Of a stretch of 64,000 nucleotides of DNA, positions 6,615 to 63,032 are shown in pieces; the first letter of the stretch is position 1, and every line of letters starts with the position of its first letter. The stretch spans positions 3,184,762 through 3,248,761 of the forward strand of contig RPFO01000156.1 in NCBI GenBank assembly GCA_009746045.1, written 5' to 3'. The notes beneath the pieces were generated by a model. The model had not been told where the DNA came from. It did not search any database and worked only from the letters and a program-made list of their open reading frames with translations. The translations under genes and the position numbers were made by a program. This DNA is from Mesostigma viride (Eukaryota; Streptophyta; Mesostigmatophyceae; Mesostigmatales; Mesostigmataceae).

Positions 6615-9600
6615 TTAAAACTTGTCCTTCCGGGCTCGAATAGCAGCCATGGCTTGAACAGGGTCTGTGCACCCGGCAGACGCCTGGCATGCAGCGCATT
6701 CATGAATGGTTCAGGCCCACATAGCCACGGGAGCGCGCCCATTCACACAAATGTGCGTGTGGGCACACACTACATGAGAAGGTGCGCAACCATTGTTAAA
6801 CAGCAAGTGGAAATACACATATGGGATTGATTAACAAGGTCATGGAAGACCGTGCTTGCAATGAAAAACCTACAACTCATAGCCACGCAGCCTAGTTACC
6901 TGAATTGATTGCAAACGCATCAACATGGTGCACGCAGCAGCATGTCACCAACAATAGCACTCATACATACCATGTTTCGAAACTTGATGAGTATTGAAAA
7001 ACCAACCCAGAAGCGGGGCGACGAAATAAAAGAACGTCACAAAGAGCCAGCGCAGCATAATATTTCCCAAAGCAGAATAGCAGTATTTCTCTAGTGACTC
7101 CGGTCATGCTAGCTCATCTGACTGCTTAGTTGTCGCGCCGACATCACTCCAGTGTGCTCATCATGCTGGCTCATCTGACTACTTAGTTGTCGCACCGACA
7201 TCACTCCGGTGTGCTCATCATGCTAGCTCATCTGAATGCTTGATAGCAGTAGCGCCAATATCACTGTTGGACATGGCACTCACATTTTGATAGCATAAGA
7301 CCATGATATTTGTACATGGCATGCATCTGTGCAGCACATGTACAGGCTATAGATAGAGCACAACTCACGTTAATTATATAGCACAGCACGTACACCGATG
7401 CTACAGTACAAATGCCAAGGTGATTGGTATTACATATACAAGAATGTATAATCACAGCCGCGCGTAAAACCATGGAAGGTCGTATAAGTAACTGATTTCA
7501 TAAACAACCACGTCGGACTCAAGAAACATACCGGCTACCACAAAGATAAGATGATTGACTTGTATACTTATTAAAATGAGTAGATGGCACGAGAATAGGC
7601 TAGCCCGCTAATTAAAAGCCATGGCCAGCCTCTGTGTCCTATATAATGCTTAACTTTTAGCTTCCTGAAATTACCAACATATTTAGCACTACTGGTACAG
7701 TTATAACAAATACATACTAGTATGATAACGTGAGGGTGTAACCCCAGGGGACTTGAGGTCACTCAAAAATTGCCAGTATTACTGAAATCATGCTCCTAGC
7801 TATTGCCGATTTTAAACCACATTGCTAGAAACTGACGTTGTGGACGACGACTTGCACTTTTTTTACGGCTTTGGTGACAGCATATGGCACACGTACAACA
7901 GCCTCCTGGAGACACGTACTGCAGGTAATGGTCATACGATCACTAGCAGCAGACTATACCGCATTGCGAGATACCACAGTTGACACATGTGCCGACAGCA
8001 TTGCATATATAGAGCCCTAACAGTTTGTTAAAAACACATAAGCTATCGAGCTCTAACCCATTCTGTAGGTAAAAGCTAGTACGCGGCGCACTGCATGGTG
8101 CACTTTCAGAACAGCAACGCATAGCCTGCAAGCCAAACTGTTGACTGTCCATTCGCAACATTGAAGTAAAACTAAGCCTTAACGGATTCGCGCTGGCTTC
8201 CAGCGCTGTGCGACTGCGTTAGCACGTCCATGTGACAATACAACAAGACGGTCATTCCCCACGGCGCCGTGATCAATCACTGGCCTCACCATCCTTCCAG
8301 ACACACTGGCATGCATTTCATGCTGGACCAGTCGAACATACCCATTTTCTGTTCAATGTGCACAGCAGACCACTCATCCCCGACATCCCCATGGCCACCT
8401 AAGAATCGCCATCGCACACATTGCATCCCTCAATTCTCCATCCTCCCCACTGCGCCCCACAATCTCCACGCCTGCCCCGGCTCCTGCTTGCGTGCTGGCT
8501 CTCGTGACAGTGATCCGCCATGCCATTTCAATCTAGAATCAGAAGTCGATGCATCGGTGAGCCTGGGCGGCAAATCAAAACAGCAAAACAAGTCTGACTA
8601 TACCGCACTAATAAAGTCCCAAGCTTGTGCTGGCAATTCTACGTCACCATCCATCGTCTCAAAGCAGGGCCTGACCCCTACAGTCACGCGATGTGCTAAT
8701 TGGCTGCGCGGTCGCATCAGGGGTGGCCCCCTATTAGTAGGCCTTCACTTGCACATCCAGTCTTGCCCAAGGCGTACCTTCAAGGCCGGTTCCCGCACCC
8801 GAAGAAAAGGGTTATACGTAAGCTCCTGCCCCATCGTGGACGGCACGGTCGGGCGACCACCCCGGAGCTGTTCCACCACCCACGCGAGCTTTTCGTGGAC
8901 CGCCGTGTTGTCGGCATCCACCGTGCGTGCAAACTCCAGGTTTTTCTTTGAGTACTGCGAGCCAGGTGTCAGAAATGCCAGCGCAGATGAGGGCATGATA
9001 AACAAAGCTGCAGTATTGGACCAGGAGGTTAAGTCTAATATTTCTAGCTAGTCTGCGCCGGGTATGCTATTCCAACCAATCTGAGCACTGATTGGAGTGA
9101 GTAGTCTTCATCATGGTAATTTATACCAGGATTAACAATCATGCACGTAATGATGGCACGCACTATATAAACCTGTATGGTAGGGAACACATATACACAG
9201 GAGTGGAAACGAAAACGGTAACGACATCTGGCTGGAAAAATGTACATCTGGTTGACAAATGTTGTACATAGTAATGTCAGAGCACAGAGCTCTAGATAGC
9301 AATGCCTAATTGTGTGAGTTACTTGAAAACTTGTTATACTTGAAATGGATGAATGAAATCTTAAGCTGCTTGGAATGAACGGTGGGCGTTAACAAAAAGA
9401 ATGCCAGATCGGATGGCTGAGTCGGATGGGGGAGGGTGCATGCATGGGTGATTAAGGCGTACTGCTGGATATGATGATCACCTCATGTGCCAGTTATAAT
9501 ACGATGTTACTTTCACCTCTGTCATCGATTCCTTCTTTCCCCCCAAAATTATCTGACATTAATAATTCCAATGTTGAGTTGCTTTACCTCCAATATGCCA

Positions 9601-12600
9601 GCTTATTTCGATTTGTCGGCTTGTGTGTCGGATGAAAGAACTAAACATGGTCCATGTGTCAGCAGTTTGGCTTGTGTGTCGGATGAAAGAACTAAACATG
9701 GTCAATATGTCAGCAGGAATACGCTAACAGCGCAACATAGTGCATGCACACCATGCCTGCATCAATACCAGCGTTCATGCGTATGGGCAGAATCATACAC
9801 TGCCTCCCTCGTGGGATATGGTCACTTATAGCGCACCTCGTGCCCTCAGCACGTGCATCGCCAGTGCATGGATTGATTTGTTGATTAAAACCCACGTCGG
9901 ACTGCGTCATGTGAGTCCCAAGACAGGAGATTTCAATATTTGAAACACCACAAGAAGCAGAGTCAGAGCGCCCTACCTTTTCTCACAGCCTAGACGGGCA
10001 GGCCGCAGATCGAGAGAGTACTCTCTCTGCATCATTGAAGGTGCAGGTGCCACAACTATGGACCCATGCTGAATGAGACCTCGCGTTTGTTAGCACGTGG
10101 CGGGATTCTTCAGTCCACATGCCACCTACATGGGCCGCCAGTGGGTCACTTTTGGGTCACCCTTCGGTCAGCCTTGGGTCAGCTCCCATCCATCCCATGA
10201 TCGATGGCTCAGAATCAAGCTTCATGACTCAAGCAGACCCAAGGCTGACCGGGGCGCGGCCCATGCGCTCACGGGCATATTTAGTGATTGTCTCCCCAGT
10301 ATTATATAGTGCTTGAACCTGATTAACACCTGCTGATAGCTTACCTCGTGCCTGGCTGCCCGCAGCACACCAGTCCATGCATGTGGCCAATGGGCATATT
10401 TGTTGACCGTTTCCCCCATGCAGGACACCATGTACTGTACCCCCGACATCGAGTACGTCGTGATCGCAGTACAAAAGTCCACGTGGCCAATGGGCATATT
10501 TGTAGACCGTTTCTCCAGCACACCATGTACAATACCCCCTAACGCCTACTATAGCATACCTCGTGGCCGCAGTACACCAGCGTGTCGGGTGGCAGCTTGG
10601 CAAGCACCCCATTGAGTGCGTGGTCCATGTCTGCTGGGGATCCTTCGAAGAACCGGCCACACCCGGCCACAAACTGCAACCGGCCGTCCAACGGCATGCA
10701 CCATAAATAGCAGCATAAATAAATAGCAGCGGATTAAGCCGACACTGCTGTAGTCAGCAGCCCGGTCGGCATTGATTAGATAAAGATGGAGGGTTAGATC
10801 AAGATCGAGGGTAAGTAGATATAACGATCGAGGGTAAGTAGATACGATCGAGGGTGATTCGATAACGATCGAGGGTAAGTAGATAACGATCGAGGGTGAT
10901 TAGATAACGATCGAGGGAAAGTAGATAACGATCGAGGGTGATTCGATAACGATCGAGTGTAAGTAGATAACGATCGAGGGTAATTAGATAACGATCGAGG
11001 GAAAGTAGATAACGATCAAGGGTGATTAGATAACGATCGAGGGTAAGTAGACAACGATCAAGGGTGATTAGATAACGATCGAGGGAAAGTAGATAACGAT
11101 CGAGGGAAAGTAGATAACGATCCAGGGAAAGTAGATAAGGATTGAGGGTGATTAGATAACGATCGAGGGTAAGTAGATAAGGATCGAGGGTAATCAAGTT
11201 CGGCGGCTCAAGCCTGGCTGAACAGACACCTCAGAGCAGCAAGGCAGTTCAGAAAAAAACTAAGGATGCATGCATGATAGTTGGTTGGAAAGCGCTGGAA
11301 AAACCAAATGCCAATGGCTGAATTCTGGAGCCACGTTAGGCTAGGGATTCGGCTGCGTTGGAAAGCGAGTATCGCCAGGGACTGGTAAGTTTTTGGACTC
11401 CCTTGATTGGATCCCAGATGCATGTGGCGTAATACTCAATGATCGCTGTCAACTGACATTCTGTCATGATTTGCTTGCAAAGTGTAATGCTGATTGCTGA
11501 ACTATGTCTACACTGAGCTTTCTCTACCTGGCCAGCAAGATCATGCTCAAGCGCCAGTGCACGCTGAAGTAGCTGCTTCTGGATGGACAGCAGTCTAAGG
11601 GCACCCCACATGCAAGCCGAATGATAGAACAGTCTAAGGGCAAGTCACATGCCGAATGATAGAACTGTGTGGCCAGCCATGCAAGGGTCAGGGTTACTAT
11701 CGCAACCATGTCTGCTGACAAATCCTATCTATCGCCAGCCACGCAATGATGCATGAGGTCGGCAAGTGGGATGCAGTTGACATCCACGAATGTTCTGTCT
11801 GTTTATTGACATAAACCCAACATGAAAAGTGCTCACATATAAAAATATATACTACTAAGCCCAACATGCACAGCGCTCACAGGCACACTTGAAGGCGGGT
11901 TGTACGATGAATGGTAAGTACTAAGAGATAGTGTATCCCCCTTCTACAGTGACCAAGTTATGATGCACCATGTTAATGGTTCCCTGCACGAACCTCTCCG
12001 CCATATTTAAAATCTAGCATTTGTGACAGCCGAGGCAGCTCCGCCTTGACAACCAACGAGTACCAACAAACACGCCCATGCAGTTCCCACGTACACAGCC
12101 AGCCTCCCTCTGCGCCCTGGCAGCGATGCCCCAGCTGTTCTGGGCCGACCCCCGGGCTCGGCTAAGCGACCTAATCCTGCCCTAGCACAATATAACACAA
12201 CCAGCAGCCTCAGTGAGTGCTCACGAACCGACCGTTAGTATGTTGGTCAACTAATTACATCACTCCGCGGCCATTGGTTTCTGATGGAAACAGGAAACCA
12301 AATTATGGTGCATCTACCCTGTGATTGTATGCAAAAACTAAACTATAACCCAGGATGCCTCGCCTCACGTCCCTCTAATAATCCATTTTGCTCTTCATGC
12401 TCTTCATTTGCTCCATGCGAAGCTCTAAGAACACCATCCCGACCTTCTCACAACACTCACAGTTCTCACAGCGTGACACCCACCCTATAATATAGTTCAT
12501 CATGGCCAACTTGGGGGGTTGTGGGTTGTGGGTTAACCCTGGGTATGCCCCTAAAAACCCTCAGGCTCCGGGAGAGGCCTTTATACTCAGACTCCCAAAC

Positions 12601-15600
12601 TGGCGCCTCTAAATGTGATCCAAGCCTATCTGTGGGCTCTGGACCATGGGGCAGCCTTACTGCATCCGCTATGAGTCAGCCATGCTTTGCCCATGCAGAG
12701 AGCCACTCCCTGCTGAGACGCCATCATGCCCTAGCCATTGCCTAGCCATGATCATCTTCCACCCCATGTCCGCAACTTTGCACAGCTGCTGGAATACATG
12801 GTGGTGCAGGTGCACCTCAGTTGTGCACCCCGAGTAGGTGGCAATTTACACCCACCACCTGCAGGTTGTCGCCTAGAATGTATTAACCCTTAGTCGGGAA
12901 ACTACCCGACCTGTCGGGTAGTTTGACTAACGGTCGAATTTCGCGCCGCGCCGTGAGCGCCGCGCCACCTGTGACGGATGTCAGTGGTCCGGTGGGTCCG
13001 GGAACACTTATGGACGAGGGTGATGCATAGGTTTGGGGGTAATATTCGCCATAGCTTGGTAATTACAACGTGCATTGAGCAGGTATCACGTGACTTTGGC
13101 GGGAAATTTTCACTCGCGCGCGCGCGTAACGAGATATGGCTGCCAGCATGCCGTTCTCACGGAAATTTTGCGTGTCGAGGCTAGAAACGGTTCAGAATTT
13201 TGCTCAGAATGACTATGCGTGATTTTCGTAGGTCAGGCATGGCCAAACTTGTAGGATTGGGAAAATTCAGGTAGGAAAATACTGCCTTCTGGGTCGTCAG
13301 TGCCAGATGAGTAATCGCTTATCATATTTCCATTTTATCCTCATGGCCGGGCAGTCTGCGCAAGCCCAAGCATCCAGATTTGGTACCGGATGTCCGCTGA
13401 TGCGTTTGCTGGGAATGCGGACGCGTTTACAGGTAATATTTGAACGGAGCATCAACCTTGTAATAATAAAGGATGCATGCATGATGCGGCTATGGCGACC
13501 TATGCCTGTAAAGCAATGGTATGTGTGAGATATGAGGGTCCCGGCCAGTGAAATCCGGGCAGGACGTGAACGAGCCAGGTACGGCAACGTGTTTGCGTGT
13601 CCTTTGCAGCGGATTACGTCTCCCATGCATTATATTTGACGAGCTTTTTAGTGCACCTTTCAGCAAGCCTCCATGCCTGCTGTAAAGAGGGGTATTAGCC
13701 CTGAAAGTGACCAGTTTATGGCATTTCTTTGGAGCATATCATTTCGTTAATGCAGGTAGGCAACATGTTTGTATTCCAGCACCTTTGGCAATCTTTTATA
13801 GCTTGTTATAATGCATTCTTGTATTGCATGTCATAGATGGCTGTTTACGCGCGCGTAACCCACACACATGTATGAGCACCTTATATAGGTCTAATGGGTT
13901 ATCCGGGTGGTCTGACCCAAGGAAAGCACCATTGGACTATCCAACTAAGTTGTCCAATGTTGTTGTTGAGGTTCCATACCCTCCCTGGGAAGTTAGGTGG
14001 GGGTTCACTTTTCCTTGGGCAAAAAAGATCGTCTTTTGGCCAAGTTTGACTGGAGCTATCATCCAAATGCTTCGATAAACCTGTGGTATTATTGCATATT
14101 CTGAAAGCCCTCGAAGTGTAGATACTCCTAGCATCTTGGTTGGGGGCATTTGGAGTTGTGGCCTGTGAGTTATGATTTTTCTCATTTTCAGGGGTCTGAA
14201 AGTGCCAAAAATGGTCCTCCCGACTAAGGGTTAAAAACCATATGCCCCTTCTCAGGGATATGTGTTACATATCCTCCCCATGTGCGGAGGTATGTTCTTA
14301 ATTAGTTCAACTTCTACTTTCTAGGGATATTGAGGCCATTAATGCCAACGACTTACCAGGGTGTCCCCGGTGAACACCGCCCCAGGCTCGTTGGGCGTGC
14401 GCTTGTCTGTCACGTAGTAGCAGATGTGGCCACCCGTGTGGCTGCCCGCCGGGGACCAGCATGCGACGCAGGGTGCAAGCAATGCAAGGGTTTCCAGCGG
14501 AGCAGCGGATGGCACTTGGTGAGGACGATAACGATTTCCGAGGATGGAGTTATTGCTGATGCAGCACATGAGATATGTAATTTAAGTCCTCCATTATGCA
14601 GTATATTTTGTAAAATGAGGCAGTACAAGCGTTACCTGAGACCTTAAAAGATGTTCCTAGGGTCTTGCTCACAAGCTCGACTCTTGTTTCCCACAGATTG
14701 ATCCTTTAAAAAGCCAAAGCCAATCCCATCAGGGGGTTGATGAGCCGCATGAACTTGGCTACTAGCTAACACGTTCAACTGTCCTCACGTGTACGCACCC
14801 TCGTCATACTGGGAGCGCCATGCTCTATCTGCCTATTTCTACCCGCCCTATACCACCTGTCCACGGGGGGGACTAGGACAAGAAGGCGGCAGATATCTCT
14901 AAAGCAGAGCACCGCGGAGTGCCACGTATAGGCGATCGACACGGAAGAATACAGCTGCAGGCTAAATATAGAGTAACTCAAAGCCACAGGATGTGACTGC
15001 ACAGAGATACGAGACAACCAACATGAGGCACTTCATCAATAATTGCAGTTGTGTCCCCACTCAATACATGCGCCGCACCGGTCACGCGACTGCCGGTGTC
15101 TGCCTCACAGCGGAAGCAACGGACGTAGACCAAAATCACATTTTGGCGAGAAGGGCGAGCTTAAAATTGTCTGCTATTATGTCACATGGTGCAAAAAGTC
15201 ACTATTAATAACGGCCAACAGATGCAGGTCACTATGCTGGGTGCAAACAATTCCAATAATTATAGCTAATGCACAACTCAGCAGGACAGGATGGCCGAGC
15301 CGCTTACCATGCATGCGCACATTTCATCCCTCATCATGGTCATCATGCAGCCACACACGTTATTGTCCCCCGATGGGTCCCTGGCATGCTCAAGGATTCG
15401 TACGAGGTTTTGAAGAAATACCCACCAGGGTGTGTGGAGGCAGGTGACCTCCAGGGAGGATGCCAGGGTGAACGTGTCGCCATGCTGGACGGGCTTGGTG
15501 CAGGCAGGGACCTTGTCCAGGGTGCCGCCCACGATTGTAACACCTGGCAGGGACGCGGCCATCGTCTCGTTCCCCCCCGCGTGGTCCCTGGGTGGTTGAG

Positions 15601-18364
15601 TGGGTGGAGGCGCCGAGAGAGTTGGGACGCACCCCATTCGTGCAAAAAGGCAGAAAGGCATTAGGCTACACATTAGTCGATAATGCTCTGACACTCACGC
15701 AAGTCATTACAATCAAAATCAAATCAACAGGCCCAGCCACACCAACAAGCCCAGCCTGCACAGCCAGCCACACCAACAGGCCTGGCCACAACCATCCACA
15801 CCAACAGGCCTGGCCACACCCAGCCACACCAACAGGCCCGGCCACACCCAGGATGTCAGGTTTCTCTTCACATGATCCACAGGCAATTGTGCTGGGCGTC
15901 GCGAGGGCTACCCCTTCCATAAGGGGTGAGGGGTCATTCTGCTTAGTTCTAGTTACACGGCACCACTAGCATTATATAATGTGATGTCCAGTTGAGCTTC
16001 GCGAGGGCTACCCCTTGAGGGGGTAGGATTCCCTAGTCCCTCGTCCTAAAGGGAGCTTACCAGTGCCGGTGCGTGGTCAGGTCCTAAAGGGAGCTTACCA
16101 GTGCCGGTGCGTGGTCAGGTCCTATAGGGAACTTACCAGTGCTGGTGCGTGGTCAGGTCCTACAGGGAGCTTACCAGTGCCGGCACGTGGTCAGGTCCTA
16201 AAGGGAGCTTACCAGTGCCGGTGCGTGGTCAGGTCCTACAGGGAACTTACCAGTGCCGGTGCGTGGTCAGGTCCTAAAGGGAGCTTACCAGTGCCGGTGC
16301 GTGGTCAGGTCCTACAGGGAGCTTACCAGTGCCGGTACGTGGTCAGGTCCTACAGGGAACTTACCAGTGCCGGTACGTGGTCAGGTCCTATAGGGAACTT
16401 ACCAGTGCCGGTACGTGGTCAGGTCCTACAGGGAACTTACCAGTGCCGGTACGTGGTCAGGTCCTACAGGGAGCTTACCAGTGCCGGTACGTGGTCAGGT
16501 CCTACAGGGAGCTTACCAGTGCCGGTACGTGGTCAGGTCCTACAGGGAACTTACCAGTGCCGGTACGTGGTCAGGTCCTACAGGGAGCTTACCAGTGCCG
16601 GTGCGTGGTCAGGTCCTAAAGGGAGCTTACCAGTGCCGGTGCGTGGTCAGGTCCTACAGGGAGCTTACCAGTGCCGGTACGTGGTCAGGTCCTATAGGGA
16701 ACTTACCAGTGCCGGTGCGTGGTCAGGTCCTACAGGGAGCTTACCAGTGCCGGTGCGTGGTCAGGTCCTACAGGGAGCTTACCAGTGCCGGTGCGTGGTC
16801 AGGTCCTATAGGGAACTTACCAGTGCCGGTGCGTGGTCAGGTCCTACAGGGAGCTTACCAGTGCCGGTGCGTGGTCAGGTCCTAAAGGGAGCTTACCAGT
16901 GCCGGTGCGTGGTCAGGTCCTACAGGGAGCTTACCAGTGCCGGTGCGTAGTCAGGTCCTAAAGGGAGCTTACCAGTGCCGGTACGTGGTCAGGTCCTACA
17001 GGGAGCTTACCAGTGCCGGTGCGTGGTCAGGTCCTACAGGGAACTTACCAGTGCCGGTGCGTGGTCAGGTCCTATAGGGAACTTACCAGTGCCGGTGCGT
17101 GGTCAGGTCCTACAGGGAGCTTACCAGTGCCGGTGCGTGGTCAGGTCCTACAGGGAGCTTACCAGTGCCGGTGCGTGGTCAGGTCCTATAGGGAACTTAC
17201 CAGTGCCGGTGCGTGGTCAGGTCCTACAGGGAACTTACCAGTGCCGGTGCGTGGTCAGGTCCTACAGGGAGCTTACCAGTGCCGGTGCGTGGTCAGGTCC
17301 TACAGGGAGCTTACCAGTGCCGGTGCGTGGTCAGGTCCTATAGGGAACTTACCAGTGCCGGTGCGTGGTCAGGTCCTACAGGGAACTTACCAGTGCCGGT
17401 ACGTGGTCAGGTCCTACAGGGAGCTTACCAGTGCCGGTACGTGGTCAGGTCCTACAGGGAACTTACCAGTGCCGGTGTGTGGTCAAGACGGTCGTGATCT
17501 GCACGCCTTCTGCCTTCGCAGCACTGAGCACCTTCTCGGGCCCTGCTGGGTCAACGGCGGCCGCCTGCTTGGTGCTGTCGTCCACTACCCTGTGGAGTAG
17601 TAGGGACACACATGCGCCTGAGTGAGTGCATTCCCAGCGTAAGTTGTGAAATTTTAGGCGCAGGGAAATTTCCATGCAAAGCGTTGAGAAAAACAAGGCG
17701 CTGAGAATCGTCGTCGTCACGCCAGCTAGACGTATAGTCGGCCCGTGGTCCCGGCGTGCTGATTCGGACGTGCCTCACCTGCCGGCCATGGGTGACTATC
17801 ACACACAATATATATATATATATTGCAACGGATAGCAATCAAAGTCAGGCGAATGACCTGACAGATAACAAATATCAACATCTTGAACATACATAAAGCT
17901 ATATAACTTAGTAATTTCATCTAACAAACTACAACAAAAGAGCCCCCTCCCCAGGCATTTCTAATTCTAAGCGATTCAACTTGCATAGTGGAAATTCAGT
18001 GGAAAACACTAGTCGACGCAATACTTCCACGAAGATGACATTACTACTACATTAACCAGAGCGACAACTCTCCCCTTAACAAATAGCGAAAGAATGCGTA
18101 TATACAGGATACTGTGATGCCGACCAGTGAGCTGCAAAGTAGCAACTTATTAATTTCTTGGGTCGTTAGCAAGGTTACACTTTTTCATTACATTGTCGAG
18201 ATAGTTTCCCACACTGAGCAAACAAGTCACGTGGGGTAGAACGCTCAGTGAGGTGCTGCGAAGTATATATCATCCATAGCAATTTATCGGAATGCTACCT
18301 CGACAAGATCCACTTACAGGTAGGAAAAATTATCCTCTAGGACCGGGACAATAACAACTCTCAT
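6615..18364 (-). CDS. GLX2: Glyoxalase II (hydroxyacylglutathione hydrolase), 7 exons
   Basis: It hydrolyses S-D-lactoylglutathione to D-lactate and glutathione, the second step of methylglyoxal detoxification. The minus-strand join is 18364-18318, 17589-17467, 15587-15426, 14441-14357, 10673-10560, 8954-8778, 6683-6615; 777 nt, 258 aa plus stop, close to the 260 aa of the human cytosolic enzyme. All introns are GT-AG and phases close. The metallo-beta-lactamase metal site is complete: T53-H-R-H-W-D-H59, H112 in TPCHTGGH, D137 in FTGDT and H176 in CGHE. The glutathione-binding region reads GCGRFFEG, with Arg and Phe where the human enzyme has Lys and Tyr, followed by Y178SKKNLEFA. The C-terminus is [16 protein letters not shown]. 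The protein begins [16 protein letters not shown] with no transit-peptide-like extension, so it is probably cytosolic. Intron 2 holds a 38-bp minisatellite that amplifies the exon-2 donor; intron 4 (3.7 kb) holds a 21-bp satellite and a TTAA transposon. A LINE ends about 245 bp upstream of the start codon. Confidence 0.95.
7085..7268. repeat. Tandem repeat, about 66-bp unit, 2-3 copies (GLX2 intron 6)
   Basis: Units share GCTCATCTGACTGCTTAGTT and CGCCGACATCACTCC blocks with a few substitutions; the last copy is degenerate. It lies wholly inside the intron and does not touch an exon. Confidence 0.8.
9612..9716. repeat. Tandem duplication, about 50-bp unit (GLX2 intron 5)
   Basis: Two near-identical units contain GGCTTGTGTGTCGGATGAAA followed by GAACTAAACATGGTC. 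Purely intronic. Confidence 0.85.
10260..10575 (-). repeat. Tandem repeat (about 107 bp) spanning the GLX2 exon-5 donor
   Basis: The block GGGCATATTTGTTGACCGTT occurs three times (near 10270, 10390, 10495). The flanking block that forms the end of exon 5 and its donor (plus strand ATACCTCGTGG then GCAGTACACCAG, 10557-10580) is copied at about 10341-10370 and, degenerately, at about 10447-10470. The 5' splice site and exon terminus are therefore part of the repeat unit. Confidence 0.75.
10776..11191. repeat. 21-bp minisatellite, about 19-20 copies (GLX2 intron 4)
   Basis: The unit is GATAACGATCGAGGGTAAGT plus A, with variants GTGATTA and GAAAGTA in its second half. Each unit carries the palindrome CGATCG. 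Because 21 is a multiple of three, it generates a spurious repetitive reading frame. Confidence 0.93.
12500..14312 (+). repeat. Dispersed repeat R1, copy 2, split by a TTAA insertion
   Basis: About 12500-12882 plus 14235-14312 form one R1 copy when the intervening element (12887-14230) and one TTAA are removed. It begins near a GTGGGTTGTGGG stretch and shares GGCGCCTCTAAATG, CCAAGCCTATCTGTGGGCTC and GGACCATGGGGCAGCC with a copy at about 45165. The left boundary is approximate. Confidence 0.6.
12887..14230. mobile_element. piggyBac-like non-autonomous element, TTAA target duplication
   Basis: The 13-bp terminal inverted repeat CCCTTAGTCGGGA is perfect at both ends (12887-12899 and 14218-14230). 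TTAA flanks each side (12883-12886, 14231-14234). The R1 copy at 5291-5640 preserves the uninterrupted site, so the insertion is exact. TTAA duplication with a CCC-starting TIR is the hallmark of the piggyBac superfamily. At 1344 bp with no long reading frame it would depend on a transposase elsewhere. It sits in GLX2 intron 4. Confidence 0.85.
15736..15858. repeat. Short tandem repeat of CACACCAACAGGCC-type units (GLX2 intron 2)
   Basis: Four to five irregular copies of an approximately 27-bp unit containing CACACCAACAGGCCTGGCCA, just inside the 3' end of intron 2 as transcribed. Confidence 0.75.
16045..17484 (-). repeat. 38-bp minisatellite amplifying the GLX2 exon-2 5' splice site, about 38 copies
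   Basis: On the coding (minus) strand each unit reads CTGACCACGCACCGGCACTG followed by GTAAGCTCCCTGTAGGAC. The genuine exon-2 end is TTGACCACACACCGGCACTG with donor GTAAGTTCC at 17466, so the unit consists of the last 20 nt of the exon plus the first 18 nt of the intron. The array runs without interruption from the exon into the intron. Substitutions among units are few (A/G in CGCACC versus CGTACC; TAAA, TACA or TATA before GGGA), suggesting recent expansion or homogenisation. Nearly every unit retains a consensus GTAAG donor. Confidence 0.96.
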
Positions 18365-18608
18365 GGTGTCGATTCTTGGCGCAAGGGGCTCGTAATTCCG
18401 TCCCTTGCAAACTGGGAAGCAGGCCCTCGATTACTGGGCATACCAAGATGAGTATTGAGAGCTCTATCCTGTAAACATTGGGTGATGATAATTGTTGACG
18501 GCCTGCTACCAGCTTGCAACTTGCAACCAAAATGTTGCGTAGCGCTACTGTAGCGCATCGGCCGATCGGAATCGAGATTGCTAATTCTGATTGCTCCAGA
18601 ATTGCCAT
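18365..18608 (-). promoter_or_regulatory. GLX2 upstream region, abutted by a LINE 3' end
   Basis: Only about 245 bp separate the GLX2 start codon from the LINE target-site copy at 18609-18621. The promoter and 5' UTR are assumed to lie here or in the LINE. I see no clear TATA box. Confidence 0.35.
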
Positions 18609-18701
18609 CGCCAACATTTTCCAGGTAAATAGGTGTACGTTTATTCCAAATATAGCCAGTAGGTAATCCCTGCTAAGCCTAGGGTATCAAGATGTCAGTG
18701 G

Positions 18702-24700: not shown

Positions 24701-24827
24701 CGACATAGGGTTGGGTGATACTGGCTAGTTGTGCCTGGAGCGCAGATATTTTAGACTGTCCCTGGGTGCGAACACCATAAGTATTTAAACCCTGAACGTT
24801 CCAAGATATTATAGTAAGTTGACTCAT
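18702..24827 (-). pseudogene. LINE-A ORF2 polyprotein (endonuclease-RT-zinc finger), one frameshift, one insertion
   Basis: The ORF starts at 24827 with the endonuclease: SWNVQGLN, LQEHK, MGDFNVDLD, SRLDYIFM and FSDHYP are its catalytic motifs. A single frameshift near 23966, after LLADPAFRP, separates it from the RT reading frame (to about 21664). RT motifs are NYRPIRMLTVPYKLASKLL, FWDFEKAFDRICWK (motif A), SLPQGDCLSPLLF (motif B) and AYADDTTN (motif C). The frame then meets the TTAA insertion (19941-21659) and resumes at 19936 with the residues TYNELAAWV, ending at 18702. This C-terminal part has a zf-RVT-like finger, CLCTNPTETVEHRFLWC. Without the insertion and one TTAA the ORF is 4403 bp, about 1467 codons, a normal LINE ORF2 size. 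It would be inactive as read here. Confidence 0.88.
19941..21659. mobile_element. TTAA-flanked DNA transposon (1.72 kb) inside LINE-A
   Basis: TTAA at 19937-19940 and 21660-21663 brackets a sequence with inverted ends CACGTC (left CACGTCCCCTGTAG, right-end complement CACGTCGTCTGTAG). Removing the element and one TTAA restores the LINE frame YRLLTYNELAAW, matching LINE-B. Each end carries palindromes of the type AGTCCTAAAAATAGGACT (19961-19978; about 21596-21617; a half-palindrome at 21624-21640), and another lies at about 20308-20328. No transposase is seen, so it is probably a non-autonomous piggyBac-like element of a different family from the one at 12887. Confidence 0.85.
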
Positions 24828-24879
24828 AAGTTAGTAGAAGGGGAGAGAATGCAGAAGGATGCGAGCGTTGGCGTACCTC

Positions 24880-28032: not shown

Positions 28033-29011
<979 letters not shown>

Positions 29012-34418: not shown

Positions 34419-34449
34419 GGCCGGATATATGTAGTAGTTGCAGCAGTAG

Positions 34450-37318: not shown

Positions 37319-37358
37319 TAACCTAACGATCCTATTGGTTAATAAAAAATACCCATTT

Positions 37359-39367: not shown

Positions 39368-39384
39368 ATAAAAAATACCCATTT

Positions 39385-47949: not shown

Positions 47950-48370
47950 GGGATTTAATAAAACACGTGCTCCCGTTGGGGGATTAATAAAACACGGAGC
48001 ACCTAAGTGCTTTTAATCCCTGAGTGTGCACAACGGGTAGGGGGGCAGAGACCCCCCCTTTCCCTCACGCCACAGGCATGCCACAGGGTGCTCAATCGGA
48101 CCCGTCTAACTTGAAACGATCCGGGGCATCCCCTGTGGGTGCAATATGTCCCGTGTGAGCATTGGATTGCTATGGAGACGTCAGCAAACAAGCACTGCTA
48201 GGCGAGGCGCATAACTAGGCTGGCTGATGCCTGTTGGCTACTGGTTAGGCTATGGGCAATTGCGTGGCTGCATTCTACCCTGCATCGGTGTTGCACTATT
48301 AAAATTAAATTTAATTATAACATGCCTCCGTTGGGAGATCATGTAGCACATACTCCTTGCTGGTGTTGCA
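47950..48370 (+). repeat. Dispersed repeat R2, copy 1
   Basis: It shares AAACACGTGCTCCCGTTGGG, GAGCACC-AAGTGCTTTTAATCCCT, GGCATGCCACAG, GATCCGG and GTGGGTGCAATA blocks with about 63600-63800. At about 48300 a further R1-like end (AATTATAACATGCCTCCGTT) is present. It lies just downstream of HUS1. Confidence 0.65.
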
Positions 48371-48462
48371 CTATGGGATGGCGATGTCCAGGTTGCATCA
48401 CCCGAGCATAGGTGTGGCTACATGGCTAGTCTAGCCCGTAGGGGCCTTCCACAGCTGTAAGA

Positions 48463-53932: not shown

Positions 53933-56900
53933 ATGGCCCATACGATTCCGCCTCCATCCGACGTGTCGATGTTTCCGAATCAAGCAAACTTGGAGATGTC
54001 GCAGCAGCGTGATGGAGATGTAAAGTATTCTCTGGGAAACTCAGCCCAGGCCACGTCAAACAGCTCTTCCAATGTACGTAGGTCCGCAGCCTGTACGTGT
54101 TGGGTGCTCACTTTACAACATACCTCTGCACTTCATTTACAACTTACCTCTGCTTCAACATGCATCGGTTCTCGTTTCAACCCAGTTGCCTTATTATCCT
54201 CTAATCTCTGTAGATCCCTTAATTAGAATCCACTAGCTTCTCTGGATCCGCTCGTCCTGCTATTCAAGTACTACTAATTAGTAAAGTACTATTGAATAGT
54301 ATTCCTTCACACCCTGCTCCATACCGTGGCCAGTGGCCCTCTTTCCACGAAGCATCATGACTTCTTGACCAGGGGCGTTATTGTGAACGCTAGAAGCAAA
54401 TCGTAGAGCTGCTGGGTCATGTATCAAATTCGTGGGTGGGCAGCCCAACGGCCAGTCCATGATGTACAGCATCAATGTGTATTCAGCATGCATGCGCTGT
54501 CTATTTCTTTTTTCAAATTACGTGTCGTTCTATTATAACAAAAAAAATTGCTGCCTTTGTCTGCATTTCAATCGGCTCGCTGGGGATGGAATGAACGCTC
54601 AGGACGTACGTGCAGATTCCCAGGAGCAATCCATGGTGACCTTTGCGACCCACCCAGCCTCAGGGGGCTCATCAGCTCCGCCGGTGTCGGATGCCAGTCT
54701 CTCTCTCCCCTCCCGCGGCAACGGTAACCTGGCAGCCCCCAGCCTATCGTCCAGCGGGCAAATAGCATTCTCCATTACATCACCGCCAGCTGGCGGCGCG
54801 ACAAGTGCCAGGGGGGCCGATGCCGAGTCCGCCACCCATGAGCTGAAGATGGGCCACGTGCTGGAGGTGGAGGCGCCCAGCGAGGGGGTCCCTCTGCTTG
54901 GGGCCAGGAATGACAGCTCTGATGTTGTGGACATGGCCAGTGACGATGGCGCGGTGCAGCTGGCCAAGGGCATGTCACGGTACGCCAGCTGGCGCAAGGA
55001 TACTACCTAGATTAGACCTCGTCGTTAGACTTGTGGTGGAAACTATCAAGCTTAATTGTGTTTACAGCATTTGTTTTTTTGGCCAGTTTGATGACAACTT
55101 GACCTTGAATTTTTGTAAGCTGTTCTAGCGTCGTTTAGAAGCTTGCAGTTTGGAATGGATGCCTCTGCCGGTTAAACCAGGCATTCGCACTTTCGCACGG
55201 GAAGGGAGCCCTTTGTATATTTTATTTCTGTGTAGCGTCCTGCCACTGTCTGCATGTTCTGCTCAGTGACCCTCTGGTACCCCCCCTGTCTCTTATAAAA
55301 ACGCGCCGGACAGCCTCTCAATGATCAATGATGGTCCCTGTATTGTTCTTCTCAACCTGTTATGGCTGCCTCCTGTATCATTTCCTTTCATTTCCGTTCA
55401 TTTCCTCGGTCACACACGTGCCTTTCATTTCCTGGGTCACACATCCGCTCTTACAATGCCCTTGGTCATCACTGTGCACCCACCCCCAGACTCCAAGGTT
55501 GCAGCCAGCCGACATGGCTGAAGGCCGCTATCCTCGTGCTGGTGGTCACTACAGCGTTGGGGGCGGGCGTCACTGTAGCGGTGCTGCCCCACGGCTGGGA
55601 CGACATCGTCGCGTTTTGCTCCAAGTCGGGTCTTGCTGCCGCCTTCTCCCTCATCTTTGTCTCCGAGATCGGTGACAAGGTGCGTGCCATGCTAGCATGT
55701 TGCACTCTAGCTAGCAAGTACCAAGTACAAATACTACCAAATACTAGTAGAAGTATGTGTCCACGTATAGCACTCCACGTATAGCACTCCACGTATAGCA
55801 CTCCACATATAGCACTCCACGTATAGCACTCCACGTATAGCACTTTCTCCCTCATCTTTGTCTCTGAGACGGGTGACAAGGTGTACACGTCGCCGGCATG
55901 CTGCACGCGATGCCAGCAAGTACGACATACTCTGGCATGATGCTTCATAGGTGCGGGCGATGGTAGCGAATTACGCGCAATGCTAGCAATTTGTCTCTCC
56001 ATCTCAGTACCATTGCTTGTTTCGGATATATCTTTTGACGTTGTTCATGCGATGGAGACTTTCTCGAGCTTTTTCACGTGTGGCAGACGTTACTGTAGCA
56101 TGCAGGCCGCAGGGCTCGCTCGTTATAACCTTCGTGTATGCGGTTACCCAACACAGTCCGAGAACGAATCCAGTTTACTTCCTCTAATAGGCAGTTTTTC
56201 CTGTCGCACCTTGGCTCCGCAGCATGACTGTAGTGCAAAGGCACTGAAGATGAATCCGCTTGTCAACTCTGTGTGTGCTGGCACTCATGCGAGCTCTCTG
56301 CCCCGGGGCCTTGGTCCCCTCTGCCCTTTCCTGATTCCTCCCTATCTACCACCACACCGACTCCCTCACTCCTGGTCACCCCCCCCCCCTCACACCCTTC
56401 CACCCCCCCCCCTCCCCTTACGCTTTGCAGACCTTCTTCATCGCTGCGCTGCTGGCGATGCGCTACTCCAAGTTGCAGGTGACGGCAGCCGCAGGGGGTG
56501 CCCTTGCACTCATGACGGTCATCTCCACCGCGCTGGGGTACCTGTTCAAGAAGGTGCCAAACTCCATCGCAACCAGTACGTCAGGGGTTGTGGGGGCTAA
56601 TAATCGTACAATAACTGAGACTATCTTATTAATGTACTCTCCACCGCGCTGGGGTACCTGTTGAAGAAGTTGCCTAAAGTCCTTCATCGCAACCAGTACG
56701 TTGTGCAACACGGGACTCTCTACTTTTCATGCTGAATTTGTTGTGGGAAAGCTAGATCTGTGTTGAAATAGTTGTCGTCTATTTTACTGTTCAACTTTGC
56801 ACGCAGCCGTCAGCGTAGCTGGATGGTCCCTGAGGCAGTCGACAAGTACTTATTTTGGTGTAGATACTCCAGATACTATATTGTATACCATACTTCAGAT

Positions 56901-59900
56901 ACTATATTGTACAAGTGAGTGTGATCGTGCTATTTTCTACCTCTATCGTGCCTTGGCATCGGGCACTCCACGCCTGGCACTGCTTACCAGCCTTTCCTGC
57001 ACCGTGCACACTCAAGGCAAGTAGTCCATGCTAGTAAACACTGTTATGTCTGGCTGCTCCTTCCACTATCTTTTCACCAGCTACGTTTCATTCCTGCAGC
57101 TATGGCTCCTCAGCTCGCGTTCTGCCAGCCTGAGGTTGGATGTGTCTGTTGAAGCTCGCGGGCCCCCCATATGGCCAGCGAGGCAGCATCAGCGGGGAAG
57201 ACCTACTGCCAACCCATCCAAAGGCTGTGGGATGCCATGCATGCAATATGCATTTCATATCTTATGGTGCCCTTCATTTCATGGCATGCACCCTTCATTT
57301 CATGGCATGCACCCTTCATGTCATGGCATGCACCCTTCATGTCATGGCATGTGCCCTTCATATCGGTCCCCAAATATAACAATTCCGTCTGTCGGGCCTG
57401 GCTTCGCTGCGCGGAGTATTCCACCCCACCCCTTCCACCCCCACCCCTTCCACCCCCACCCGGTAGCTTGGCGTGCCTGATTGCAGCCAGTCTATGCACC
57501 TGATATCCGCCGTAAGCTTCCTGTTGAAAAGTAGTCTTGCATTAATGCCATGTGCTCGTGTGTGGACGTGCCTCTGCTATGGGTCCCCCCCCCCGCCTTC
57601 CCCCTTCCCCCCCCCCCCCGCAGGCGCCCCCATCGGGGAGTACGCGGCGGTGGCCCTGCTCCTCTTCTTCGGTGTGCGCACATTGGTGCAGGGGCTGGCG
57701 ATGAAGCCAAAGGGGAATAAGGCGCACGAGGGGGAGGGCAGGGAGCAGGGGGGGGAGGGGGGGGAGGAGGAGGAGGAGCAGGAGGAGGACTCCGAGTTGC
57801 AGGACGCCGCGCAGGTGGTGTCAGAGGCAGAGGTGAGCTGTTAGACATCAGCTAGGTTGCCGCGCTGCTTGGTGGTATTGATGGCAGAGGCGATCTATGC
57901 ATTAAGGGGGTTGCATGCTGTACTTGCGGCATCAGAGGCAGAGGTGAGCTGTGGATAATCGGGTGTCAGACGGTGCTGGTGTCGCAGGGTGTGATTGGTG
58001 ACGCTGCTGTGTCTTGTTAGCAGCTAGGTGCCAGCAGCCCAGATTCCTGGCTCGTGTTGGGATAATCGGGACGGGGCATCAATGGCAGTTGATTTACGAG
58101 TCAAAATGTACATTTCCAGTATTTCGTTACTATGGTGCAGTACGTTAGCAATTCCAGGAAGAACATCTCCATGGCATCCTGTAAAGCTGCTGCAGGATGA
58201 TTGGCACGTTGGAATTTCTGAGACATGATGAGGAAATGGAGACCGCTCATTGCGGCCCTTTCTTTTCCCTTTCTGATTCACTGTTTGTGGGTAGCCAAAA
58301 TTTTGCAATGTCAAGGCTCGAACGTTTTCTTTACTTTGTCATGTTTGGCCCACTTGTTCCTCTTAAGTGCCTCGGCTCCCTGTCGCAGCAATTTTATGAG
58401 CTGCCCATCCCACCATGGCTATCTGTCCTGCAGTATCCTGGTTGAGCTCTCCTTATTCGTCTGCCCATCCCACCATGGCTATCTGTCCTGCAGTATCCTG
58501 GTTGAGCTCTCCTTATTCGTCTGCCCATCCCACCATGGCTATCTGTCCTGCAGTATCCTGGTTGAGCTCTCCTTATTCGTTCGTCACACTCGACTTTTCC
58601 CCCTATCCTCACCCCGTATATCGGATCAATGACCACGGCCTCCCTGCAGGCCTCTTTGCGTGACGAGTCCTCTGCGTTCGCTATCATGGCAGAGGTGTTC
58701 ACGCTCGTATTCGTCGCGGTGAGCCCCCGTCATCTGGGCCCCCATAAAGCCCCCGCATAGATATAGCAGTTGTAGCTGCAGTGAGCCCCCGTCTCACCTT
58801 CTAGTTCCCCACATTGGCCCCATTAAGGATTTATTACAGTCGCGGTCAACCCCCCAGCCGTATGGCCATATCGATAGCCTTATGGCCTGCATATGGCCCG
58901 TAACTAGAGTTTTACCGTTGCAGTGAGACCCCATAAGGCCTGACATATGGCCCCCACATAGGGATTGCACTACTGTACTGCATGACTAGTATAATGGCTC
59001 TATGGTCTCTATAGTATGTAATGCCATATAGTATAATGGCTCTGTGGTCTCTGTAGTAAATAATGCCATATAGTATAATGGCTCTGTGGTCTCTGTTGTA
59101 AATAATGCCATATAGTATAATGGCTCTGTGGTCTCTGTAGTATACAATACCATATAGTATAATGGCTCTGTGGTCTCTGTAGTAAATAATGCCATATAGT
59201 ATCATGGCTCTGTGGTCTCTGTATTAAATAATGCCATATAGTATAATGGCTCTGTGGTCGCTTCCGCGCGTTCATGGTGTTGGCGATCTCATCCCCGTAA
59301 TTTATCATGGTCAATGAATATAGATAGCAGTTACAGTATCATTCCAATGAATATATAGCAGTTAAATAGTCGCGGAGGGTTCCTCATTTCGCCGCATGTA
59401 GCCCCCCGTATGGGCCCCAAGTAGCATTCTATAGTCGCCATAAGTCCTCTTATGGCCGTATGCAGACCCCAGTTAGCCGTCATTTAGCACCTGCAGAAGC
59501 ATTGATTCATGCCGGCCAGAATATTACCAGGCGTGTGTTATAGATGTATTCAAAGGCCACCATGGCGTGCGATGCATCACGATTTTGTACCCCGCATGCT
59601 GTGTAGAGAGCTCTTCGTGCGTCCTCTGCGTTCTACGCTCACGTGTCATCGTCGAGTTTAAGCGCTGAACGCAAAATTGCCTCTCATGTCCCTTAGTTGA
59701 TCCTTCATGCCCTGAGTCCACGCCCTGAGTCATACTTTGGGGGGCGCTCTGTGCGTGTCATCAATTTGGTAGTTCCTCCTTCTCTGTTCACCGCTGAGTT
59801 GCCAGCTATGGACATGGCTGGAAAGCAGTTAGAGGTGCCAAAGTTCTCCCAGACACCCGGACAGAGGCACCTGATTCGATGGATGAAGGAATGAACGTGG

Positions 59901-62900
59901 GCTGACAAAATGAAGGAAACAAGCAAAGAAATGAAGGAGCTAATGAAGGAAGGGAAGAATATGGACTCTTGAATAAAGCAATTAACATAGGGATGCATGT
60001 TTGTCTGCACATGAACCCTCCCATGAATGCAATCTCTTTCCTCGCTTCGTCCCCATCCGCAGGAGTGGGGCGATCGTTCCATGCTGGCCACTATCGCACT
60101 CGGCGCGACGCAGGTGGGTGCAGGGATTAACGCATTAAACACACAGCATGCACACCACGGTGCATCTGTCAGAAGTATATGTTCATGCGCATATGCGAGG
60201 TGATTGTGGCTTTCAGGTATGCGTATTCTTTAGCCACTCCGTACACATGGGTGCCAGGAAAGCGAACATCGAAGAAGCACGCCTTCACTTGCGGTGCATA
60301 TTTGCTGTCTGGGCCTTTATTACCTTCCTCTGCACCGCTAGCTCTGCCTTCTGCCTCGCACCTTTGTGCCCTCTCTGCCACATAGGGAGTTTGGGGCCCG
60401 CTGTAGTTGTGGGTCCTGGCTACGAATGGAAAAGGAACTAGCTCACGTCTTTCATCCCATGCCCGCACTTAGTGAGTATGTCCACACTTAGTGAGTATGT
60501 CCACACTTAGTGACTATGTCCACACGTTGTGAGTATGTCCACACGTAGTGAGTATGTCCACACTTAGTGAGTATGTCCACACTTAGTGACTATGTCCACA
60601 CTTAGTGAGTGTGTCCGCACGTAGTGAGTATGTCCACACTTAGTGAGTGTGTCCACACTTAGTGAGTGTGTCCACACTTAGTGAGTGTGTCCACACTTAG
60701 TGAGTGTGTCCACACTTAGTGAGTATGTCCACACTTAGTGAGTATGTCCACACTTAGTGAGTATGTCCACACTTAGTGAGTATGTCCACACTTAGTGAGT
60801 ATGTCCACACGTAGTGAGTATGTCCACACTTAGTGAGTATGTCCACACTTAGTGAGTATGTCCGCACGTAGTGAGTATGTCCACACTTAGTGAGTATGTC
60901 CACACTTAGTGAGTATATCCACACTTAGTGAGTATGTCCACACTTAGTGAGTATATCCACACTTAGTGAGTGTGTCCACACTTAGTGAGTATGTCCACAC
61001 TTAGTGAGTATGTCCACACTTAGTGAGTATGTCCACACTTAGTGAGTATGTCCACACGTAGTGAGTATGTCCACACGTTGTGAGTATGTCCACCCTTAGT
61101 GAGTATGTCCACACTTAGTGAGTGTGTCCGCACGTAGTGAGTATGTCCACACTTAGTGAGTATATCCACACTTAGTGAGTGTGTCCACACTTAGTGAGTG
61201 TGTCCACACTTAGTGAGTATGTCCGCACGTAGTGAGTATGTCCACACTTAGTGAGTATGTCCACACTTAGTGAGTATGTCCACACTTAGTGAGTATGTCC
61301 ACACTTAGTGAGTATGTCCACACGTAGTGAGTATGTCCACACTTAGTGAGTATGTCCACACTTAGTGAGTATGTCCGCACGTAGTGAGTATGTCCACACT
61401 TAGTGAGTATGTCCACACGTAGTGAGTGTGTCCGCACGTAGTGAGTATGTCCACACTTAGTGAGTATATCCACACTTAGTGAGTGTGTCCACACTTAGTG
61501 AGTATGTCCACACTTAGTGAGTATGTCCACACTTAGTGAGTATATCCACACTTAGTGAGTGTGTCCACACTTAGTGAGTATGTCCACACTTAGTGAGTAT
61601 GTCCACACTTAGTGAGTATGTCCACACTTAGTGAGTATGTCCACACGTAGTGAGTATGTCCACACTTAGTGAGTATATCCACACTTAGTGAGAATGTCCA
61701 CACTTAGTGAGTATGTCCACACTTAGTGAGTATGTCCACACTTAGTGAGTATGTCCACACTTAGTGAGTATGTCCACACTTAGTGAGTATGTCCACACTT
61801 AGTGTCGGGCTTTAGAGCGCTCACAAGCCGTGACGTCTCTCCAATTAGACTGTGATGACCTCTCTCCAACGGGAGCACATGAGTGTCATCAAGTTTGCGA
61901 CGTTGTTTGCAAAGCCTTGTGCAAAGTCTCTCTTTTGCGTGACCAATCCGCATGCATGTCATGAGCTGCCACTATCTTGGCTGTAAGCATGGGCCCACCC
62001 CAGTTGTTGTTTTCCTGAAGCATGAGCCACCCCAGTTCTTTGTTGCGCACTGACCTGGCACACAGCTGTTCGTCTGGACTGTGCGGGCGCTGCCACTTCA
62101 TGCCTTTGCTTATCGCTACTGCGCTGGCGCATGGCTTGGCGCTAGCGGTGACTTGGCCTTGGCATGAGCATATTGAATGAGTGCATTTGCGGTGGCTGGG
62201 GGGGGTATCCTGAAGTGTTTGACCGGATAACCCATGACATCCCGAACCGGGTGATTTAACATTTCTGCCCTCGTGGAACCCTTGTGCTGCAATCACCTGT
62301 GCATGCAATGCTACGTTGCGCTCGTGGTCATCCCTGTGTTCTTCCTTTTTTCCGACTGTGATTTGTCCAGTCACCCTGGGGTGTCGCGGCAGGTGCGACC
62401 GCGGGTCACCTGCTGGCGACAACCATCGCCGTGATTGGCGGATCCATCCTTTCCAAGCATATTTCGGAGCGGGTGGTACGTGCATGGGAGTCGGAAATGA
62501 CCGGCCGGATGGAGGTGGGAAGTACCCCCTTGACACTTTCAAACTAGCTAGATCTCGTATTCGTAATAGTAAGAAGATGGGTGTCTATTTTTTGTATGGA
62601 AAGGAGCATTTCTTATTGGGAATATGGTGCGGGGCATTTATTATTGGTAATAGTAAGTTTGTGAGACACTTACTATCAGTACTGGCAAGAGCAGACAAAC
62701 ATTGTAGGTAGCACTAAAACCGGAATGAGACGTCCATTGTAATCACTAGTGAGACGAGGCATGTTCTTCTAATCTACAATGCTTTTCACTAATGCACTAA
62801 TGGTAATTTTTGTACCAGTGCCAAGCATGAGGGTCGGCATGTTCATGAATATCTGAGATTGCTCCAGGCGATCCCTGGGCATTTGTTAAACCAACCCGGT

Positions 62901-63032
62901 TTGATCTAATGTGTTTCCCCCCCTTCTCTTGCCGGATGCTGTGCTTGAATCTGCATGCAGGTGTCCATCGTGGGCGGCGTACTTTTTCTAGTCTTTGCGG
63001 TGGCGACACTTGTTGGCATCCTGGTCTCATGA
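53933..63032 (+). CDS. PAM71/CMT1-type UPF0016 (GDT1 family) Mn2+/Ca2+ transporter, 9 exons
   Basis: Members of this family move Mn2+ or Ca2+ across chloroplast or Golgi membranes; the chloroplast forms supply manganese to photosystem II. Exons are 53933-54073, 54603-54979, 55505-55679, 56431-56575, 57624-57832, 58650-58718, 60063-60113, 62371-62475 and 62961-63032; 1344 nt, 447 aa plus stop, all GT-AG, phases closing. Both signature motifs are intact: E227-I-G-D-K-T232 (across the exon 3/4 junction) and E373-W-G-D-R-S378. Hydrophobic segments flank each, and an extra helix (LKAAILVLVVTTALGAGVTV) precedes the first. The loop between the two halves is strongly acidic (about residues 314-342). 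LPIGEYAA-like and AEWGDRSMLATIALGA wording is of the chloroplast/cyanobacterial type rather than Golgi type, but I cannot separate PAM71 from CMT1. Exons 1-2 (172 residues, Ser/Ala/Pro-rich, acidic) are the least certain; an ATG at 54591 is an alternative start. Confidence 0.88.
55643..55905 (+). repeat. Duplication of the transporter exon-3 end and donor, with a 14-bp repeat between
   Basis: The exon end (TTCTCCCTCATCTTTGTCTC, then GGTGACAAG, donor 55680) is repeated with donor GTGTAC at 55881, about 201 bp downstream. Between them lie about six copies of CACGTATAGCACTC (55761-55845). Confidence 0.92.
56541..56702 (+). repeat. Duplication of the transporter exon-4 end and donor (120-bp offset)
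   Basis: CCACCGCGCTGGGGTACCTG, AAGAAG and TCGCAACCA-GTACGT occur at the true exon end (donor 56576) and again with the donor-like site at 56696. The copy has an indel in the middle. Confidence 0.92.
57262..57365. repeat. 21-bp tandem repeat, about five copies (transporter intron 4)
   Basis: The unit CCCTTCATTTCATGGCATGC plus A alternates TTTCATG and TGTCATG variants. It does not overlap an exon. Confidence 0.93.
57818..57960 (+). repeat. Duplication of the transporter exon-5 end and donor (111-bp offset)
   Basis: TCAGAGGCAGAG-GTGAGCTG occurs at the exon end (donor 57833) and again with the site at 57944; a weaker GGCAGAGGCGA occurs between. Confidence 0.88.
58396..58580. repeat. 60-bp tandem repeat, three near-identical copies (transporter intron 5)
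   Basis: The unit includes CCCATCCCACCATGGCTATC, TGTCCTGCAG and TATCCTGGTTGAGC. Each copy carries a TGTCCTGCAG resembling a 3' splice site about 60-190 bp before the genuine exon-6 acceptor, but the following bases are not exon 6. Confidence 0.93.
58708..58930 (+). repeat. Degenerate repeats of the transporter exon-6 donor
   Basis: The donor GCGGTGAGCCCCCGTC (58719) recurs as GCAGTGAGCCCCCGTC with GT at 58781 and GCAGTGAGACCCCAT with GT at 58924, along with partial CCCCCATA/TATGGCC blocks. Confidence 0.7.
58981..59262. repeat. 42-bp tandem repeat, 6-7 copies (transporter intron 6)
   Basis: The unit contains TAATGGCTCTGTGGTCTCTG and TAGTAAATAATGCCATATAG. The period is a multiple of three and yields spurious frames. 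Confidence 0.93.
60466..61804. repeat. 19-bp satellite, about 70 copies (transporter intron 7)
   Basis: The unit GTCCACACTTAGTGAGTAT recurs with a few variants (GTAGTG, TTGTG, GTGTG, GTATA). Every unit contains GTGAGT, a consensus 5' splice site, but no exon sequence, and it sits well inside the intron. Confidence 0.96.

Follow-up and report, generated by a model that had tools for sequence, protein, structure and literature searches.

Introns of Mesostigma viride often carry a short direct copy of one of their own splice junctions, that is, of the edge of the adjoining exon together with its splice site. A sequence-only reading of one 64,000-nt stretch of the genome (G000:C2:3184762-3248761, which we call the window, from an assembly of 439.9 Mb) had claimed such copies in the introns of three genes, GLX2 (hydroxyacylglutathione hydrolase), the checkpoint gene HUS1, and a transporter that we assign to the GDT1/TMEM165 family, and had proposed that they recur in this genome. 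They do recur beyond the window. In a set of 87 introns, 68 of them confidently modelled introns of conserved genes and 19 from the window, we find a junction copy at 27 donors (cluster bootstrap 24-38%) and at 12 acceptors (6-21%), so that 34 introns have a copy of either type (31-47%) and 5 have both. The copies are spread over 14 of 17 gene segments: 11 of the 14 outside the window, and all three window genes. Introns with only a donor copy outnumber those with only an acceptor copy, 22 vs. 7 (p = 0.008).

The conserved genes were found using E. coli K-12 proteins, chosen for their conservation and ignoring repeats; eight of the 29 prepared were used (clpB, fusA, gcvP, carB, purL, gltB, acnA, and valS). 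Exons were located in the genome and then modelled by a spliced-alignment program written for this purpose and checked on HUS1. Of the 174 introns predicted outside the window, we kept the 68 whose two flanks both had sufficient protein similarity and which were long enough and free of N; the flank requirement removed 98 (11 of their donors and 10 of their acceptors have copies), and a further 8 were shorter than 80 nt or included N. We say that a junction has a copy if an ungapped alignment forced through the junction covers 8 nt or more of exon and 4 nt or more of intron, with a score of at least 13, at most 400 nt away, after dropping low-complexity matches. The copy rate is not a product of poor gene models, because 9 of 24 donors have a copy under the strictest filter (flank score of at least 40), and 32 of 166 donors (with 21 of 166 acceptors) have one when the flank filter is dropped altogether. 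The purLa intron 0 has a striking repeat pattern, but the exon calls within the repeat have poor protein similarity, and it stands outside the filtered set.

The density of repeats does not account for these numbers. A naive null based on repeat coverage finds a downstream spanning match of at least 30 for 24% of random intron positions, mostly within long arrays, and by that standard 7 of 19 window introns would be unimpressive. We replaced it by nulls that use first copies only, because a junction can lie only in the first copy of an array. For the 78 introns of at least 330 nt, 200 draws of random positions give a mean of 3.33 donor-like copies (maximum 9) compared to the 27 observed, and a mean of 3.05 acceptor-like copies (maximum 8) compared to 11 observed; a 60-draw version gives means of 3.45 and 4.27 with maxima of 8 and 9. 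The remaining nine shorter introns have no donor copies and one acceptor copy. In the window, the first-copy null is 5.0% of random intron positions (97/1929). The sequence-only reading had itself named repeat density as what could undo its claim, and on this sample the comparison left the claim standing.

The copies are almost exclusively in the adjoining intron. Donor junctions have no match in the upstream intron (0/75), in the next intron (0/73), or in other introns of the same gene (0/819), and for acceptors the counts are 0/73 and, for other introns, 1/894, which is one match in 1934 own-gene comparisons. Against introns of other genes, the threshold is reached in 0.0000 (donors) and 0.0004 (acceptors) of the trials. 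In a search of both strands of 75 introns, all matches were direct and none inverted. Introner elements (PMC9860276) are likewise intronic repeats with splice sites, but introners are alike across genes while the copies described here match their adjoining junction, and with 0/819 donor and 1/894 acceptor matches in other introns of the same gene and at most 0.0004 in those of other genes, we rejected them as a candidate.

Inside the window, a gapped local alignment of the junctions of 19 complete introns in the three genes finds donor copies with 12-40 nt of exon at 7 introns, one of which also has an acceptor copy. The stricter ungapped test (within 400 nt) finds 6/19 donors and 1/19 acceptors. 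Copies had been claimed at 8 of 20 introns; their existence holds, and the count does not. The donor copies that stand are those of GLX2 exon 2 (score 73) and exon 5 (32, the weakest), HUS1 exon 3 (55) and exon 4 (54), and GDT1 exon 3 (63), exon 4 (61) and exon 5 (42), together with the sole acceptor copy, that of HUS1 exon 5 (101). A further claimed donor copy, a weak one for GDT1 exon 6 (58778-58793, plus strand, score 27), has 3 exon nucleotides only, below the 8 nt that the sequence-only reading itself proposed, and it is excluded from our counts.

The copies had been described as tandem, which is right for three of these eight junctions. On the minus strand, a 38-mer repeated 38.0 times (16043-17485) holds the final 19 nt of GLX2 exon 2 and its donor. 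On the plus strand, a 75-mer repeated 4.3 times (41683-42005) has its first unit starting 12 nt within HUS1 exon 3 and including the donor, and a 94-mer repeated 11.6 times (43379-44464) includes the acceptor and initial 33 nt of HUS1 exon 5. The other five junctions have single or few copies, spaced and decayed. For GLX2 exon 5 (9830-10360, minus strand), decayed copies of the exon end and donor have their junctions near 10345 and 9837. For HUS1 exon 4 (42850-43240, plus strand), also decayed, the copy junctions are at about 42880, 43000, 43091, and 43233. The three GDT1 copies, all on the plus strand, are a 36-nt end of exon 3 with the donor and some intron (55844-55922, copy junction at about 55880), a 54-nt end of exon 4 with identity 0.95 followed by GTACGT and then by none of the ensuing intron sequence (56638-56700), and a 12-nt end of exon 5 with its donor (57932-57952).

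How sharply is the signal centered on the junction? Among 30-mer windows moved along the donor side, 26% have a copy when they span positions -20 to +10, 19% at -30 to 0, and 10% at 0 to +30. Windows starting at 0 to +80 average 6.0%, those beyond +90 have 2.7% (first copies), and exon windows starting at -80 or farther have none. On the acceptor side the profile peaks at 13%, for windows ending at +20. As the exon is conserved, copies of exon sequence should stay visible about twice as long as copies of intron within intron, and part of the junction excess comes from exon copies being easier to recognise. A hot spot is more fairly judged by the intron start and by the class of donor copies of high identity. 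In that class, we find 6/56 donors compared to 31/1846 first-copy positions (1.7%), and in the window 5/19 compared to 63/1929 (3.3%).

As for how the copies come about, the reading to which we give barely better than even chances is that short direct duplications straddling splice junctions recur, persist in the adjoining intron, and have their exon part refreshed by turnover or gene conversion. The first step would be a tandem duplication across the junction, of a unit that combines the splice site with an exon edge no longer than about 54 nt and with some intron. Certain units would grow into arrays, the largest having 38 copies. In time, the exon-derived part of a copy would remain recognisable while the intron-derived part would often be lost, as array turnover or gene conversion may refresh the copy from an exon that selection keeps intact. 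Such duplications would be tolerated because the outermost site (the first donor or the last acceptor) still joins the intact exon. We favour tandem duplication followed by turnover or conversion because multiple copies of one junction share their exon-side end, and neighbouring copies share spacer. As an example, five acceptor copies of valS intron 14 (outside the filtered set) all extend to +28 or +29. By eye, neighbouring copies have some spacer in common as an old array would. A transposon insertion with target site duplication would leave a recognisable element between two copies, but spacers inspected by eye appeared unrelated. The nearest copy is at a median of 106 nt from the donor, and the exon part of donor copies has a median of 26 nt. 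On the donor side, duplication of a whole exon with both splice sites does not fit: the exon part never exceeds 54 nt, even though 23 of 25 exons offered at least 100 nt. Testing 24 donor copies, one of them too short for the purpose, for similarity beyond +7, we find that the intron part is similar with p < 0.05 in 9, and with p at or below 0.007 in 6 (carB 5, valS2 9, GLX2 exon 2, HUS1 exons 3 and 4, and GDT1 exon 3).

A number of observations weigh against this reading, and its rivals draw on them. In 14 of the 24 copies there is no detectable similarity in the intron part (p > 0.05), and 9 of those 14 have an exon identity of at least 0.87 (one of them over 12 exon nucleotides only). In simulations of neutral duplicates with spacers of 70 nt, the signal survives in 60/60 cases at a divergence of 0.12, and in 44/60 at 0.20. 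Plain tandem duplication followed by neutral decay is therefore insufficient, because those 14 copies keep the exon edge without intron similarity, and gene conversion would act here as a rescue of the tandem-duplication reading. The exonic share of the unit is also small (mean ratio 0.26, Kolmogorov-Smirnov p = 1.6e-5 vs. uniform, n = 23), a bias not expected from plain tandem duplication, though the matches also become shorter through decay. The 8-fold excess at junctions overstates the difference in rate, because the conserved exon keeps old junction events recognisable, and intron starts (6.0%) exceed deep intron (2.7%) only about 2-fold. Acceptor copies of high identity show no clear excess (2/56 vs. 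26/1875, 1.4%), and the window acceptors show no enrichment (1/19 vs. 5.2%). Finally, none of 10 introns in two paralogs of the GDT1 gene has a junction copy, for which the chance is about 0.02 at a rate of 0.31.

The missing intron similarity would be expected if a repair or RNA-templated event wrote nothing but the edge of the exon and the bases of the splice site into the intron, stopping near +6 (donors) or -3 (acceptors). The neighbouring intron would then never have been part of the copy, and the template could be an RNA fragment protected by U1 or the spliceosome. The ends of the matches look this way: of 52 donor matches that touch the exon, 34 have their right end at -7 to +10, and of 29 acceptor matches, 16 have their left end at -9 to -2 (counts that pool several matches per junction, include introns that failed the filter, and leave out simple and array-like matches). 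The limited exon part points in the same direction, as do exon copies (carB 11, clpB4 5, GDT1 exon 4, and valS 2) that have an identity of 0.91-1.00 but no intron similarity. But these same limits coincide with the end of the constraint on a functional copy, 9 of 24 copies do have intron similarity, the exon-side end is common to the copies of one junction, as it would be in array expansion, and both the adjoining location and the direct orientation suit tandem duplication, all of which leaves such junction-limited copying doubtful in our view. A different possibility is that tandem duplication occurs at the general rate of the genome, and that junctions seem special only since the conserved exon keeps old duplications recognisable. 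That exon-intron matches diverge on one side only is consistent with it, and so are the modest 2-fold excess at intron starts and the acceptor results just given. Yet the donor copies of high identity (6/56 and 5/19) exceed not only their background at that identity but also the 3.0% and 5.0% found at any identity, and the exon matches of at least 0.91 without intron similarity are left unexplained; we consider this account unlikely. The sequence-only reading had suggested that duplications may be tolerated at junctions. Tolerance alone yields no excess over intron interiors, but the longer recognisability of conserved-exon copies gives part of the excess. It is also conceivable, if rather unlikely, that junctions act as hot spots where a recurrent copying, linked to splicing or transcription, would repeatedly write back the footprint of exon edge and splice site without flanking intron, and would turn introns into a layered record of their own edges.

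Are the copies kept for a function, be it as splice sites in reserve or as decoys, as sites bound by U1, or as points of recursive splicing? The GT is kept in 22 of 27 donor copies, a figure favoured by the search itself, and some copies are nearer to the exon sequence than neutral decay permits. On the other hand, the offsets of the copies show no frame preference (10/6/11 modulo 3), the GT is lost in some copies (clpB4 5 and carB 11, by eye), the GDT1 paralogs do without copies, and the splicing implied by the public HUS1 protein takes the outermost donors and the last acceptor and none of the copies. We thus regard retention for function as improbable, and the frame offsets and the HUS1 protein lend no support to the earlier suggestion that the duplications supply spare splice sites. 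The companion suggestion that they enlarge introns fares no better, as the median intron length is 610 nt with copies and 665 nt without (p = 0.92). An upstream acceptor copy should compete more dangerously with the true site than a downstream donor copy would, and the surplus of donor over acceptor copies would fit this greater danger.

The GDT1 paralogs bear also on the age of the copies. Two of them lie on contig C114, and all five introns that we compared by eye are at positions matching those of the window gene; adding their 10 introns later brings the totals to 27 donors and 12 acceptors of 97. Since the two paralogs share intron positions without having copies, the simplest reading is that the copies at three GDT1 introns in the window arose after the introns themselves, with a loss of the copies from both paralogs being possible. 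Three GDT1 paralogs with common intron positions make a useful natural experiment on intron turnover. The same comparison speaks against the copies being remnants of intron birth, in which tandem duplication of an exonic AGGT segment produces the intron. Cases of that mechanism are described in single genes (PMC4974935). In our sample (n = 87), the register left by such a birth is absent, as exon ends match intron ends with an identity of 0.280 (control 0.291) and exon starts match intron starts with an identity of 0.245 (control 0.255). We consider birth remnants a very improbable source of the copies.

The gene models of the window support the junctions used here to different degrees. HUS1 is on the plus strand (40359-47621) with seven exons at 40359-40410, 40535-40659, 41497-41694, 42621-42728, 44438-44615, 46149-46301, and 47494-47621; the protein spliced by hand matches Mv00761-RA, a public protein (eukprot, jgi/Mesvir1), with 100% identity over 313 aa, and spliced alignment of a Klebsormidium protein produces the identical six introns. 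GLX2 is on the minus strand (6615-17589), and exons 7 to 2, at 6615-6683, 8778-8954, 10560-10673, 14357-14441, 15426-15587, and 17467-17589, read through as a single open frame; we looked for exon 1 by eye and did not find it. The model has 99% identity to jgi/Mesvir1 Mv24162-RA across 76% of the query. That public model, partial at 196 aa, begins just upstream of exon 3 and has neither exon 2 nor exon 7 of our model, its final residues being unlike our exon 7. The transporter is on the plus strand (53933-63032) with nine exons at 53933-54073, 54603-54979, 55490-55679, 56431-56575, 57624-57832, 58650-58718, 60063-60113, 62371-62475, and 62961-63032. Its family assignment comes from PF01169, present in its homologs. 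A protein search found no identical public protein for it, only paralogs (76% and 51%), and for this reason the model is based on homology. The start of transporter exon 2 had to be shifted, to 54603. GDT1 intron 7 houses a 19-mer repeated 70 times (60466-61804), whose unit has a donor-like GTGAGTATG and in which we see no exon sequence.

Elsewhere in the window, positions 1-2157 and 21646-24830 have retroelement-like open frames, copia-like on the plus strand and LINE-like (long interspersed nuclear element) on the minus strand, as named by eye only. Downstream of HUS1, a 2.7 kb tetranucleotide array (48457-51216) starts as GTAAGTAA repeats, which gradually give way to AGTG and AGGG. Outside the window, some matches to the reference proteins have no gene model: an intronless gltB on C557, single matches on C1513 and C1835, and those on G000:C2011, a 1.49 Mb contig with long intronless open reading frames resembling bacterial ClpB (861 aa), EF-G (696 aa), and aconitase (901 aa), which is probably a bacterial contaminant in the assembly.

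Duplications near intron borders have been described in several forms. The single-gene cases of PMC4974935 resemble ours in that a direct duplication involves splice-site sequence, and the one from potato spans an intron-exon boundary; here, however, no new intron results, the birth register is absent, and the phenomenon is common across the sampled genes rather than a single case. In the near intron pairs of Drosophila, attributed to tandem duplication of proto-splice sites (PMC2891723), duplicated exonic sequence with its splice site likewise turns intronic, but there the intron position shifts, while here, judging by the GDT1 paralogs, it stays. Rogers and Bendich (2025, PMC11782384) describe direct repeats close to the borders of introns that also touch splice sites, but in those the 5′ border is matched to the 3′ border, whereas here a border pairs with copies within the same intron. 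The 38-, 75-, and 94-mer arrays belong with intronic minisatellites; the copies in general differ from these by being anchored on exon edges and by being mostly not head-to-tail arrays. The M. viride genome paper (PMC6947507) gives a genome of 441.8 Mb, a mean intron of 1142 bp, and repeats in 30.1% of intron space; the word "splicing" occurs 0 times in its main text, and the passages available make no mention of junction repeats.

Among the papers listed in searches of the CC-licensed literature, we found no report of junction copies as a genome-wide habit. Single duplications across an exon-intron border are known, and a genome in which about one third of the sampled introns carry copies of their own junctions is seemingly unreported. 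To our knowledge, the pattern may be peculiar to Mesostigma. Such copies may disturb gene annotation, as perhaps in the public model of GLX2, where the missing exon 2 is the one that just precedes the 38-copy array. Moreover, these introns offer a natural test of how the spliceosome chooses the outermost among many near-identical sites, and of whether splicing or R-loops provoke local duplication, as well as of intron turnover.

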